Shown here: piece by piece, positions 1-37,985 of the stretch
Layout of the letters: every line of letters begins with the position of its first letter
Position numbering within the stretch: position 1 is the stretch's first letter
IMG/VR virus record: IMGVR_UViG_3300045284_000330
Location: 1-64,000 of that record
Length of the DNA stretch: 64,000 nucleotides
DNA from: a virus
Reading direction: 5' to 3' (one strand)
Notes under the pieces: model-generated
Databases searched by the model: none
Seen by the model: the letters and a program-made list of their open reading frames with translations, nothing else
What the model was told of the DNA's origin: nothing
Position numbers and translations under genes: made by a program

Positions 1-98
1 GGCGGCGGCGGCGGCGGTGGCGGCGGCGGCGGCGGTGGCGGCGGCGGCGGCGGTGGCGGCGGCGGCGGCGGTGGCGGCGGCGGTGGCGGCGGCGGCGG
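1..98. repeat. Proline-coding trinucleotide repeat at left edge
   Basis: On the plus strand this is mostly (CGG)5-TGG, an 18-bp unit, with one shortened unit. Read on the minus strand in the tape measure frame it encodes 32 consecutive prolines (CCG with regular CCA). It runs off the window, so its full length is unknown. The plus-strand poly-Ala/Val frame through it is a shadow. Confidence 0.85.
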
Positions 99-3000
99 CG
101 TTACAACCTTCGGCCCGGACGGCGGCGGTGGCGGCTTTAGCCCTCCCTCCTCTTCACCCTTCTTCGCCTCTCCCTCCTTCGCTTGCGGGATCACGATGTT
201 GCCAAGCGCCTCGATCAGCCGTTTGATCGCGGCAGCCAGCTCGTCCATCGCGGACGCAACCTCGCGGCTCGGACCAGGGACAGCACCCAGCCCATCAGCG
301 GCCTGCTTCCCGGCGTCACCCGCCTGCTTCATTCCGGTCGAGGCGGTCTCGCCAGATGATCCGACCTTGCCCAACGATGACTCAGCGGCGTTCGCAGGCG
401 TGACGAAGTTCTTCATCACGTCCGTGATGCTGCTGATCGCGCCAGCGTGCGGCTTCTCCGCATCGCTGGTCTTTGAGGTCGCGTCGGCTAGGTCCTTGAG
501 GGACTTGGTGGCGTCGTCCTCGACCTCGGAGCGCTTGCCTCGATCCTCCCGGCTCGGGAGCCGGAACTTGTCAATCGTGCCGGTTGTTGATGTGCTGAGA
601 TTTTTCTCGTTCTCCTCCAGCGCCTTCCTGATTTCCTCGTTCTCGGCGTCGGGATAACGCTTTCGCAAAAGCCTGACTATGCCCCGGCTGTTTCTCCCGA
701 GCGTAGACGTGATCTCGTCCTCTTTTGATGCCGCCTCCGGGTATTGTCCCCGCTGACGATCCGCATAGCCCTTCGCGGCACCGACGATCGTACTGAAGAT
801 GCCAAAGCCACTGGCGCCAGCCAGCACACCTCCGGCAGTCAATCCGCCTGCCGCTGCGGCTGCCCCAGGAATAGCCACGCCAATCTCTGGAAGCGCCCCA
901 GCCGCCGCACCGCCGGCCTCAGCAGCGCCTCCAACTGCAGCGGCCCCCTCACCAAGCCCAAGCCCGCCCTTTAACCCGCTAAGAAATTGACGCGGAGCCA
1001 ACAGCGCTCTCACCGCCTTGTATCCGAACTTGAGCGTTTTGAATGGATGCAACAGCGCTTGGAGCCCGAGGTAGCCCGCTGCTGCTGCCCCTGCGAGCCC
1101 GCCCGGAAAACCGCCGCCCGAGTCCGGCGGAGCCTCCGCGCCAGCAGGATGCTCAGGGTGCTCCTCAGCGGGGGTGGCCGGCTCCGTCTTGGGTGTCGGC
1201 GTGGTTTCCTCCTTACCGACACGCGACGGCGGGACGACGATGCCGCTCTTGTACAATTGCCGGGCATCGTCTTCGCTGAGTTTCTTGCCGCTCTGAAGCT
1301 TCGAGAACGCTGCATTGAATGGCGTCTGCTCAACTGGCTGCACAGCGGTGACCCCTGGCGCGAACCGCACGCCGGGGCCGCCCATCAATTCATGCTCGCG
1401 CAAAAGCCTCCGGTTTTCCTCGCTGAAAAAACCCGTCGGCTTTTGCGGCGGCACCGCCGGTCGCGGGCGCGGCAGGGGGACATCTCCAGCAGCCGCCGCA
1501 CCCGTTGGTGCCTCCTCAGCATGGGCTGTGCTGATCGGTGACAGGTCTTCGAGAAGGCTATGCTTGGCGCCCTCGGCCGGCGCCGCCGCGCCCGCTGGCG
1601 CGCCCTTCTTGCCAGAAAATTGCTCCTTTAACTTTTCCCACGTCCACTCAGCGGCGAAGCCCGCCAAAGCCGCCTTGCCAAGCTTTCCGCCCAGTGTCCT
1701 GAAACCAATCAGCATCCCCGCGCCGATTTCCAGCGTGGAAGCATCCTGATCAAACAGCTTGTTAAATGTGTCCTTGAAAGGCTTGACGAAACTAGAAGCG
1801 TCATCCTTCAGGGATTTTAACGCCTTCCCAATCGTCTCAAATGTTTTTTGCCATTTCTCTACGCCAGCATCCGCGTGGGTGTCGTCGCCGACGATGGCGC
1901 GCGACAAGCCGAGCATCGAATCGCCGAAGCCCTTGATGTAGGGCGTGATCTTTCCAGCAATGTCCCCGCCCCACGCGAGGATTTTCTGGTGGTTCTCCGA
2001 AACATACTCGGTGAATTTCTCCATGTTCTCCGCCCACGGCTGGGCGAACATGAGACCGAGCTTCGTCTTGGTGATATCAAGAACCGAGGAGAGCCGGTTG
2101 AACGCCTGATGGAAGGCGGTCGCCCTGTGCTCCTCGACATCACCCATGGTGAGGCCGAGGTGCTCCATTTTGTGCATGAATTCTTCGATGCCCTGACTAC
2201 CCTGCTTGAACACAGGGATCATGTCGGAGCCCATCGTGCGCCCCATGGCGCGCATCAATATCGAGGAGTTTTCCGCTGCGTTGCCGCTGTTCTTGACGAA
2301 ATCGGCGACGTTTTTGAAAACGTCCAGGACCTTCGGCCCCTCGCCCTGGATCGATAGTAAGCTGCCGTTGAAATTTTTTAGCGCCTCCTCGGCGCCCTCG
2401 GTATTTCCGATCAACCCTTTGAAAATATTGTCGGTGGTGAGATTGGCCTCTTTGCCTGCCTCGGCAAGCGTCTTCTGGCCTTTGAGGATATTGCCAACCG
2501 CCTTGGTGACGACCTCGTAAGAACTGAGCCTGTCATTTGTCCGCTTCTTCTCAGCCTCGTGCTCGGCCTGCTCCGCGTGCTCCAGCGCGGTGACGGCCTC
2601 CCTCCGCCTCAATAGCTGCTCTTGATGCGGATCAACCCGGCCGCCGAACGCCTTCTGGCGGGCCAATCGAGCGCGGTCGACCGACTCCTCGGCCCTATCA
2701 ACCCGGAGATTGTCGTCGATCACCTTGTCGGAAGCGTTGGAAACCTCCTCCTTTACTTTTTGCCATTCCTGCGTGATCGCCTGGCCCATGCGCCGGAAAC
2801 TGGTGCTGAGCCCTTCCCCGCTGCCGCCCAGCGCAGTAATCGCCCCCTCAAGCGCGGAGATATTCTCCACGCTCTCGCCGGTCTGGTCGGCCAGAATTTC
2901 CATCTGGTGGACAGTCTTGGCGCTCTCGTCCGCCCACTTGAACGTGAGCCCGCCGATCGCGGCGCCCGCCGCTGCCACGCCAGCAAGCGTCTCGGCAAGC

Positions 3001-17895: not shown

Positions 17896-18522
17896 CTAGA
17901 ATCTCGCACCAATTCGCGCACGGTCTTTCTGCAGGTCGGCGGCGCTCACCCGACCCCGCGGACGCGTCAGCCCGCCCAACACCCGCCAGATCGTGGCCTC
18001 GCCGCACTCGTAATCACGCGCCAGCATCGCCAGCGTCTCACCCGCCGCATAACGCTCGGCAATCCGCCGACGCTGACCGGCATCGAGGAGCGACTTGCGC
18101 CCGAACTGCTTGCCCTGCGCCTTCGCCCGCTTGATGCCCTCGTCGCAGCGCGCCCGAATGAGCTTGCGCTCGAACTCGGCCATGCCCCCCATGATCGTCA
18201 AAATCAGCTCGCCATGCGGCGTCGTGGTGTCCAGCCACGGATCCTCGAGCGCCTTGATGTGCGCACCAGCCGCCTTGATGGCGTCAAGCAGCGAAAGCAG
18301 GTCGCGGATCGAGCGCGCCAGCCGATCAAGCCGCACCGTCACCAGCGTGTCGCCCGGCTCCAGCGCCCGGATCGCCTTGTCGAGAGCATGCCGACCGTCT
18401 GTCGACTTGCCCGAGGCCTTCTCGCTGAAAACCTTGGTGCAGCCGGCGGCCGTGAGCCGCTCGACCTGGCCGTCATAGTCCTGGCCCGTGGATGAAACGC
18501 GAGCGTAGCCGATCGTGGTCAT
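17896..18522 (-). CDS. Serine recombinase (resolvase/invertase family)
   Basis: A 208-residue protein with the small serine recombinase layout. The catalytic serine is Ser10 in GYARVSSTGQD; V-R-L-D-R-L-A-R-S lies at about 63-71; MAEFERKLIRARCDEGI begins the long E helix; and a C-terminal Hin-type helix-turn-helix (AERYAAGETLAMLARDYECG) covers about 150-185. All expected catalytic residues appear present. Such enzymes resolve multimers or invert DNA. The adjacent 450 bp hold nested direct and inverted repeats that could be its site. The phage also has a tyrosine integrase, so this enzyme probably does not do prophage integration. Confidence 0.85.
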   Translation of the reverse strand: MTTIGYARVSSTGQDYDGQVERLTAAGCTKVFSEKASGKSTDGRHALDKAIRALEPGDTLVTVRLDRLARSIRDLLSLLDAIKAAGAHIKALEDPWLDTTTPHGELILTIMGGMAEFERKLIRARCDEGIKRAKAQGKQFGRKSLLDAGQRRRIAERYAAGETLAMLARDYECGEATIWRVLGGLTRPRGRVSAADLQKDRARIGARF

Positions 18523-36169: not shown

Positions 36170-36514
36170 ATGATTGAGCGCAAGCGGGAACGCGGCACCA
36201 TCAGCGACGCCATGGGCATTCTCGGGATCGACAAGGCCCGGACCATCGAGGCCATGGCGGCCCGCGGGATCATTCCCAGCGCGGCCAAGATCGGCCGGCG
36301 GTGGACGTTCAATCTCGCCGCGCTTCGAACATTTGTGAAGGATCAGGAGCGCGAGGCATGGCAAAGAAGCGAAAGGCACCCAAGGGCTGTTATTGGGTCG
36401 GGGATGTCCTCTACGGGCGCACGCGGATCAAGGGCAAGCTGGAACGGATCGCACTCGGAACAGATAATCCGGCGGTGGCGGTCGGGCGCCGGAAAGCATG
36501 GCACGAAAGTCTGA
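36170..36514 (+). CDS. Excisionase-like MerR-type HTH protein
   Basis: A frame of 114 residues. Residues 10-60 (T-I-S-D-A-M-G-I-L-G-I-D-K, I-P-S-A-A-K-I-G-R-R-W-T-F) are an HTH_17/excisionase-type winged helix. The C-terminal 50 codons overlap the integrase gene and have poor composition, so the active domain is the first half. Its place directly before int supports a role as recombination directionality factor. Confidence 0.6.
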   Translation: MIERKRERGTISDAMGILGIDKARTIEAMAARGIIPSAAKIGRRWTFNLAALRTFVKDQEREAWQRSERHPRAVIGSGMSSTGARGSRASWNGSHSEQIIRRWRSGAGKHGTKV

Positions 36515-37425
36515 TCGCCGGCCGGGTATGGGGCGACGATGAAAAGACGTTCCCCCAGGTCGTCGAAGTGTGGGAAGCGTCCTACATCGCCGGCGACCGC
36601 TCGGCCGGCCCAAACACCGTCAAGCGCTACAAAGTGAGCCTCGGGCAGATCATGCCCATCATCGGCGACCGGCCGGTCAAGGCGGTCGACGCCAAGCTGA
36701 TCCGCGAGGTCGTCGACGCCCGCCGCGCCGGCGGGGCGACCAACGCGACGCTGAAGCGCGACCTCGTCGCTCTGTCGAGCGTCATGAACTGCGCCGTCGC
36801 CCGCGAGTGGATCGACGCCAATCCGGTGCTGCCCCGGATGAAGGCGATCGTCGAGAAGCGCGAGCCGATCAATCTGCCGCGGCCAGCCGATGTCGAGCGG
36901 GTGATCGAGCGGGTGCCCGGTATGCTCAAGCAGCTCGTGCGGGCCGCAATCGTCACCGGCTGCCGTCTCAATGAGCTGGTGACGGCCAAGCGCGCCGACA
37001 TCGATCACGAGCGGGCGACCCTGACCGTGCTGGGCAAGCGCAACAAGCGGCGCACGATCGAGCTGGCGCCGATGGGCGGGTATGAGTTGATCCGGTCGCT
37101 GCCGGTCTTCGCCGGGTCGCCCTATGTTTTCTGGCACCACGACGGCAAACCTTATCGAAACCTGTCGGCCCGGTTTGCTTGGCTCGTGAAGGAAACCGGC
37201 GAGCTGGCGGCTGCCGAGGGGGTCGACTTTGCCCCGTTCTGTTTCCACGATCTGCGGCACCTGCACGCGACCCACTACCTGCATCAGGGGATCGACAATC
37301 TGTGGGTGCTCTCGAAGCGCCTCGGGCATACCTCGACCAAGGTGACCGAGCGCTATTTGCACGAGCTGAGCGAGGTCGAGGCAGCCGCGCAAATCCGCAA
37401 GGTCCAGCGGAGGAAGGCCGGATGA
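36358..37425 (+). CDS. Tyrosine integrase
   Basis: A 355-residue protein from ATG 36358. The N-terminal arm-binding domain (M-A-K-K-R-K-A-P-K-G-C-Y-W-V) is followed by a SAM-like core-binding domain. The catalytic residues can all be seen: Arg203 (T-G-C-R-L-N-E), His297 and Arg300 (H-D-L-R-H), His324 (L-G-H-T-S) and the tyrosine nucleophile Tyr333 (E-R-Y-L-H). attP lies 300 bp downstream. Confidence 0.9.
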   Translation: MAKKRKAPKGCYWVGDVLYGRTRIKGKLERIALGTDNPAVAVGRRKAWHESLIAGRVWGDDEKTFPQVVEVWEASYIAGDRSAGPNTVKRYKVSLGQIMPIIGDRPVKAVDAKLIREVVDARRAGGATNATLKRDLVALSSVMNCAVAREWIDANPVLPRMKAIVEKREPINLPRPADVERVIERVPGMLKQLVRAAIVTGCRLNELVTAKRADIDHERATLTVLGKRNKRRTIELAPMGGYELIRSLPVFAGSPYVFWHHDGKPYRNLSARFAWLVKETGELAAAEGVDFAPFCFHDLRHLHATHYLHQGIDNLWVLSKRLGHTSTKVTERYLHELSEVEAAAQIRKVQRRKAG

Positions 37426-37727
37426 CTTCGGATCTCATGACGCCGCGCGAGGCCGCGGCGCAGCTTCGCGTCTCGATCAAGACGTTGAGGCTTCTGGTTG
37501 CTGATGGCGACTTGGCCTATGTCAACGTGGGGCGAGGACGGATCAAGGGGCGCATGATGTTCACCGCGGCGGCTCTCGCCGAGTTCGTCGCCCGCCGCAC
37601 GCAGCGGAGCCCCCCCGTTTTTGTGACGCCGCCGCGTTCCAAGCACCCAGACATATCCCCGGAGGTCAGCGATTTTCTGAGACGACGGGAGGCGCGCAAC
37701 AAAAAAAAGGCGCCGCCGGTATCATAA
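37422..37727 (+). CDS. Second excisionase-type HTH protein
   Basis: A 101-residue protein with an HTH_17 domain at 6-50 (TPREAAAQLRVSIKTLRLLV, then Y-V-N-V-G-R-G-R-I). ATG overlaps the int stop (ATGA). It lies between int and attP; its stop falls within the first arm-type repeat. Two directionality-factor-like genes flank int. Confidence 0.62.
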   Translation: MTSDLMTPREAAAQLRVSIKTLRLLVADGDLAYVNVGRGRIKGRMMFTAAALAEFVARRTQRSPPVFVTPPRSKHPDISPEVSDFLRRREARNKKKAPPVS

Positions 37728-37985
37728 ATAGTATCATAGGCCCTTCCCGGTATCACAGGGCGACCGGCAAGAAGTCCGCGATTTGTAGGGGTTTTCGGAG
37801 GATCGGCCGCCTTGGCGGTTTCGGTTTAGCAAACCGCCGCCTTCAGCCACTCGGCCACGTCTCCACGCGGTGAAAAGTCTTATAAAATCATGGCTTAGTG
37901 GTCAAGTCCGTTGTTCTCCCCCGGGCGCAAAAAACGCATGAAACGCGAACAAAACGGTCTGCCGGTATCATAAAAAGTATCATAG
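37715..37985. other. attP: tRNA-Ser half core with flanking arm-type repeats
   Basis: Core: the minus strand from 37864 to 37822 matches the first 43 bases of an alphaproteobacterial tRNA-Ser(GCT), starting GGAGACGTGGCCGAGTGGCT and ending just past the anticodon loop; then the match stops. Arm sites: GCCGGTATCATAAATAGTAT plus CATAG at 37715-37739 and 37961-37985 (one change); a partial copy CCGGTATCACA at 37747. This is the expected integrase layout of core plus arms on both sides. Recombination would occur within the tRNA half. Confidence 0.78.
37879..37905 (-). promoter_or_regulatory. Likely replacement promoter for host tRNA-Ser
   Basis: Minus strand: TTGACC (37905-37900), 15-bp spacer, TATAAG (37884-37879), then 14 bp to the first tRNA base at 37864. 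Because attP carries the 5' half of the tRNA, integration places phage DNA upstream of the rebuilt tRNA. The phage therefore has to supply the promoter. Confidence 0.58.

Follow-up and report, generated by a model that had tools for sequence, protein, structure and literature searches.

The window, by which we mean the whole 64,000-nt stretch of DNA that was analyzed, very probably carries the complete attP of a temperate tailed phage, whose integrase would recombine with the anticodon stem-loop region of a host tRNA-Ser(GCT) gene and whose own promoter would then transcribe the rebuilt tRNA. The evidence, drawn from sequence comparison, comprises the attP core, its arm repeats, a linked integrase gene and a conserved promoter motif, together with a split attP and rebuilt tRNA in a related lysogen and the corresponding empty site. 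The features of the region, in window positions, are listed below.

36170-36514, plus strand: second small HTH_17 protein (PF12728, E 1.3e-07; phrog_66, E 3.8e-04)
36358-37425, plus strand: tyrosine integrase, likely start 36358, open frame from 36301 (PF00589, E 7.8e-17; phrog_1 integrase, E 3.9e-53)
37422-37727, plus strand: small HTH_17 protein, excisionase/regulator-like (PF12728, E 5.6e-09; phrog_66, E 4.8e-05)
37715-37739, unstranded: putative integrase-side arm site, starting 125 nt after core nt 1 and overlapping the end of the HTH gene
37747-37758, unstranded: partial third arm-like copy, CGGTATCACAGG
37822-37864, minus strand: attP core, nt 1-43 (5' half) of tRNA-Ser(GCT), an exact match to host genes
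37827-37833, minus strand: anticodon loop TTTGCTA in the inverted repeat CGGTTT-GCT-AAACCG
37877-37882, minus strand: predicted -10 element TAAGAC with a 17-bp spacer; TA conserved in 14/14 phage-side sequences, 16-17 bp from TTGACN
37900-37905, minus strand: candidate -35 element TTGACC; TTGAC at -41 to -38 in 14/14 phage-side sequences
37961-37985, unstranded: putative promoter-side arm site found by repeat search, two 8-mers with a 12-bp period, starting 121 nt before the core

attP core, arm sites and recombination genes

The core at 37822-37864 reads GGAGACGTGGCCGAGTGGCTGAAGGCGGCGGTTTGCTAAACCG on the minus strand and spans the tRNA from its first base to the anticodon stem-loop, where the match to tRNA-Ser(GCT) ends. 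The first-pass annotation had described it as a 43-bp copy of the 5' half of tRNA-Ser(GCT), and comparison with host genes bore this out, with 43 of 43 nt identical. ARAGORN called no tRNA genes in the 64,000-nt window or in the 10 kb that completes the record; therefore, only the 5' half of tRNA-Ser(GCT) is present, without its 3' half.

Related phages help to place the crossover. At tRNA position 43, the cores of three of them (L049, L059, and L078) carry A instead of the G of the sampled hosts, and identity between the L130 core and hosts stops at position 40 (in related attPs the match ends at nt 40-43). Strand exchange must therefore occur upstream of position 43. The anticodon loop would fit this, and other anticodon-loop integrases suggest by analogy that the loop at 37827-37833 is likely the strand-exchange (overlap) region.

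The two 25-bp arms, 37715-37739 and 37961-37985, differ at one base in 25, and both belong to a 38-nt repeat family identified by repeat search. Internally, either arm is a direct pair of 8-mers with a 12-bp period. Across 10 attPs of this design, the arm pair begins at about -98 to -121 and its partner at +101 to +140 from core nt 1, most commonly at +125 to +127. The repeat unit varies among phages, being TATGATAC in the studied phage, TGTGTCCG in L072, and TGGGATAC in L059, and units are alike on both sides within one phage. This pattern is as expected of integrase arm sites that track their own integrase, and the integrase presumably binds them. The single mismatch, the 12-bp period and the shared geometry in relatives thus agree with the original proposal of integrase arm sites starting at 37715 and 37961, and the partial copy that had been pointed out at 37747 is present in the sequence.

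Homologues of the integrase adjoin related half-tRNA attPs. The HTH_17 gene at 37422-37727 overlaps the int stop codon, and its small product may act as an excisionase; the second HTH_17 gene (36170-36514) lies upstream of int and overlaps it. Two further genes were observed elsewhere in the window. An open frame at 17896-18522, starting MTTIGYARVSS, looks like a serine recombinase (resolvase or invertase) additional to the tyrosine integrase, and the protein encoded at 24915-26198 matches both ParB-like partition proteins and DNA methyltransferases in PHROGs, apparently as a fusion.

Related attachment sites

A scan of 2.9 million viral contigs with a relaxed core, in which neither the integrase nor the promoter was used, yielded 45 loci. 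Among these were nine other distinct records with the 5' half only and TTGAC (L010, L049, L059, L062, L072, L073, L077, L078, and L088), L055 and L090 being left out as duplicates. All nine encode an integrase 43-55% identical to that of the studied phage, and the half-tRNA records L050 and L053, which have no TTGAC promoter, also have no such integrase. An integrase-alignment scan added L130, L159, and L162, which have the same design; L159 and L162 encode a distant integrase (31-32% identity), and the 5' half that they carry belongs to a different tRNA-Ser(GCT) sequence. This gave a total of 12 further phage-side sites of the same design, with integrase identities of 31-55%. By blastn, the phage database returned complete tRNA-Ser genes only and none of the related attPs; integrase scans with a single protein as query returned distant relatives only, and a class-wide integrase search yielded zero new lysogens.

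Several loci were set aside. A Bradyrhizobium relative (L005/L094) was not used as support, as it adjoins a 3' tRNA remnant of another type. The half-tRNA contigs L050 and L053/L086 have no TTGAC promoter (and L050 and L053 no such integrase) and were assigned to other elements. L051, in which the tRNA is complete and has a similar promoter, was not placed in any class.

Other arrangements were also observed. Compared with the studied phage, L049 and L078 have their core and promoter in the opposite orientation relative to int, so that after integration int would lie on the promoter side of the rebuilt tRNA. L066 (26-66 and 10490-10530) is a different, small integrated element: one of its ends carries an orphan 5' half, and the other carries a matching half that runs into the beginning of a tRNA 3' half; its upstream DNA resembles that of L054 and contains no TTGAC, and it may represent a second family using the same trick. 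Near position 5115 of L157, a distant integrase relative adjoins an apparent 5' half of tRNA-Arg(CCT), and the integrase family may therefore use other tRNA 5' halves too.

Host gene and integrated state

The core matched nt 1-43 of tRNA-Ser(GCT) with zero mismatches in Bradyrhizobium sp. Tv2a-2 as well as in five further genomes from the same order, and matches with at most two mismatches were found in 54 of 397 genomes. The host, judged from these matches, is probably a member of the Hyphomicrobiales. A search of host genomes for a matching tRNA-Ser(GCT) 5' half had been suggested as a check, and it returned 43/43 identity in several Hyphomicrobiales genomes. Joining the phage 5' half to the Bradyrhizobium 3' half in silico produced a valid tRNA-Ser(GCT), whereas the opposite product produced none. 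The acceptor-stem bases of the phage halves (GGAGACG, GGAGAGG, or GGAGCTG) must pair with the host 3' half, which may limit the hosts that can be lysogenized.

We propose that the integrase would bridge the arm and core sites, with strand exchange around the anticodon loop. As it is the 5' half that phage and host have in common, the crossover would leave the host promoter on an orphan 5' half at the prophage end that carries int, and the host 3' half would join the phage 5' half at the other end. The host tRNA would stay complete because the phage supplies the 5' half, and its transcription would be kept because the phage supplies a promoter: TTGACC, 17 bp, and TAAGAC, just upstream of the half, would drive the rebuilt tRNA in the lysogen. 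Excision would restore both the tRNA and the promoter arrangement.

No lysogen of the studied phage itself was found in the genomes searched, and the integrated example is a relative, the prophage of genome G411. This prophage is related to phage L077 (integrase 60% identical), and its integrase is 40% identical to that of the studied phage. Contig C34 of G411 runs from host DNA through an orphan 5' half and an arm into int. On contig C94, phage DNA that includes an arm and TTGACG-17-TAGGGA precedes a complete tRNA-Ser(GCT), and host DNA lies beyond it. The attP of L077 aligns to these contigs in two parts, its core and int side to C34 and its arm, promoter, and core to C94. A terminase-like gene lies near the C94 junction and int near the C34 junction, and the prophage is presumably continuous across the two contigs.

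The empty site is seen in G450, where the same upstream host region, 77% identical across 1.7 kb, leads without interruption into an intact tRNA-Ser(GCT). The promoter region native to this gene, CTTGTC ... GGGCATATC, does not belong to the TTGAC type and matches the DNA left with the orphan half in G411. In G411, therefore, the rebuilt tRNA has parted from the host promoter and is preceded by phage DNA, as had been anticipated in the first-pass annotation, which held that integration would cut the host tRNA from its promoter. G639 provided a second int-side junction, with host-type upstream DNA, an orphan half, an arm, and int. Prophages of this type had also been sought as a check on the target gene, and the related ones sit in tRNA-Ser(GCT). 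One further candidate lysogen, G600 (L114, C11:45627), was counted as a host: it has a phage-like tRNA-Ser(GCT) promoter (TTGACG, 17 bp, TAAGGC), with no arm sites seen in the 350 bases upstream, and this promoter may be either native or left over from an earlier prophage.

Predicted promoter upstream of the half tRNA

Between the outer arm and the half tRNA, read on the tRNA strand, TTGACC (37905-37900) is followed by TATAAGAC (37884-37877). TATAAG lies at 37884-37879 on the minus strand, 14 nt before tRNA nt 1 and 15 bp from TTGACC. A stringent sigma-70 scan, which required a final T and a 16-18 bp spacer, made no call at the TTGACC promoter. Taken by itself, the studied sequence would be weak evidence for a promoter; comparison with relatives makes the sequence-based case strong. 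Each of the 14 phage-side sequences, 13 from phages and one from a lysogen junction, has a TTGAC that begins 38-41 bases ahead of the tRNA, whereas shuffled upstream sequences contained it in the -41 to -38 range at a rate of approximately 0.5% per sequence. Mean identity of the 15-base spacers among the 14 sequences is only 41%. The second conserved element is TA(A/G/C)G, and the spacer to its TA is 17 bp in 13 of 14 sequences and 16 bp in one.

These comparisons modify the earlier description of a TTGACC-15-TATAAG promoter in one respect: both hexamers are located as described and TTGAC recurs in 14/14, but the -10 element probably lies two bases further downstream, as TAAGAC with a 17-bp spacer. 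A TTGAC promoter of the same layout was also found at 11 of the 32 host tRNA-Ser(GCT) genes sampled. The motif is therefore not phage-specific, and the phages carry a normal alphaproteobacterial tRNA-type promoter. We regard TTGACC-17-TAAGAC as the predicted tRNA promoter of the attP, which would transcribe the rebuilt tRNA.

Two other readings of the motif were weighed. The promoter might serve the phage itself, producing in the circular phage an antisense RNA over the excisionase-like gene and int, with the tRNA half being a recombination site only; before integration, it indeed points through the half tRNA toward both genes and is antisense to them. We consider this very unlikely, as L049 and L078 keep the distance from the promoter to tRNA nt 1 even though their core and promoter are flipped relative to int, and the spacing to the tRNA start stays within 38-41 nt in 14/14 sequences. 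Antisense and tRNA roles could, however, coexist. Alternatively, TTGAC might be a passive remnant of host DNA captured in an imprecise excision and under no selection in the phage. The architecture is the same as that of some hosts' tRNA-Ser promoters, and the spacers, at 41% identity, show some shared ancestry. Nevertheless, TTGAC is invariant and TA is in register in 13 of 14 sequences (one base off in the last) despite diverged spacers and flanks, which implies selection, and a lysogen such as G411 would then own a tRNA gene without a promoter, making a remnant highly improbable. A phage-borne promoter for the rebuilt tRNA thus remains our preferred reading.

Intact attP in a phage genome

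The virus record is 74,156 bases long. One flank of the site encodes the major head protein and head protease, and the other encodes the portal, endolysin, tail fibre, and terminase. Both record ends (window 1-100 and the end at 74156) lie within one GGC-rich array that has an 18-nt period, which suggests that a circular or circularly permuted genome was opened at a repeat coding for a glycine-rich stretch. The attP is taken as intact because arms flank both sides of the core, the integrase and excisionase-like genes adjoin it, and structural genes lie on both sides. The claim that the molecule is not integrated here accordingly stands: structural genes flank the site in the studied phage, and in the lysogen of its relative the attP halves are on different contigs. 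That the half tRNA might instead mark a host-phage junction of a prophage, with the host's own tRNA promoter upstream, gains something from the look-alike host tRNA-Ser promoters (11/32 with TTGAC at the same place) but is scarcely credible and in essence refuted by the matching arm sites on both sides of the core, the phage structural genes on both sides, and the record ends sharing one GGC-rich repeat, as for a circular molecule.

Comparison with known integration systems

In 13 phages and one lysogen, the rebuilt tRNA would be taken off, or has been taken off, its original promoter, with a conserved promoter, arm layout, and integrase group. It is possible, although doubtful, that a widespread alphaproteobacterial phage group puts tRNA-Ser(GCT) under a dedicated phage promoter in every lysogen, altering its amount or regulation, and that some host TTGAC promoters are leftovers of past integration. 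If true, such a promoter takeover would amount to a lysogenic conversion of translation. The system offers a clear experimental setting for phage takeover of host tRNA transcription and for changes in tRNA supply in lysogens.

In ordinary lambda-type phages, attP copies the 3' half of the tRNA, and the host tRNA stays on its own promoter. The studied phage shares with them arm sites flanking the core, a tyrosine integrase, and an excisionase-like gene, but differs in that it would take the host tRNA off its own promoter. ICEKp1 represents the reverse traffic, in which the host tRNA promoter drives int.

Mycobacteriophages such as Fionnbharth show tRNA-dependent lysogeny, with a core of ~10 bp, a host tRNA that is not rebuilt, and a whole phage tRNA gene (PMC10865867). 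Common to both would be an essential tRNA kept alive after integration with the involvement of a phage-supplied promoter (PMC10865867); in contrast to these phages, the studied phage would rebuild the host tRNA and carries no tRNA gene, as the record contains zero tRNAs and the 43-nt core rebuilds the tRNA in silico.

According to a review, the rebuilt bacterial tRNA retains its original promoter with very few exceptions (PMC8371274). Archaeal pTN3-like elements use the tRNA 5' half as attB, and the rebuilt tRNA is expressed from the integrase promoter (PMC8371274). The studied phage shares with them the tRNA 5' half as attB and, as predicted, an element promoter for the rebuilt tRNA. The pTN3-like elements differ in being archaeal and in having an integrase gene that is split by integration, whereas the studied attP lies outside int (int ends at 37425, the core is at 37822-37864) and has its own predicted promoter. 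A description of a bacterial phage group with a conserved, separate attP promoter for the rebuilt tRNA was not found in the open-access literature searched.

Integration through the 5' half is known but rare: in the Islander set, 159 of 3,919 islands leave a 5' tDNA fragment and 3,760 leave a 3' fragment (PMC4383910). The studied attP belongs with the 5'-fragment class in its core (identical at 43/43 nt, reaching tRNA nt 1, 3' part absent), its linked tyrosine integrase gene (PF00589 and phrog_1), its arm-type repeats on both sides of the core as putative integrase sites, and, in the relative G411, an integrated form with a rebuilt tRNA and a displaced 5' fragment, G450 being the empty site. 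It thus shares with these islands the tyrosine integrase, the tRNA target, the displaced 5' fragment, and the element-derived 5' half that rebuilds the tRNA. The main text on Islander does not mention promoters (PMC4383910), and what sets the studied phage group apart from the Islander islands is its conserved promoter cassette.
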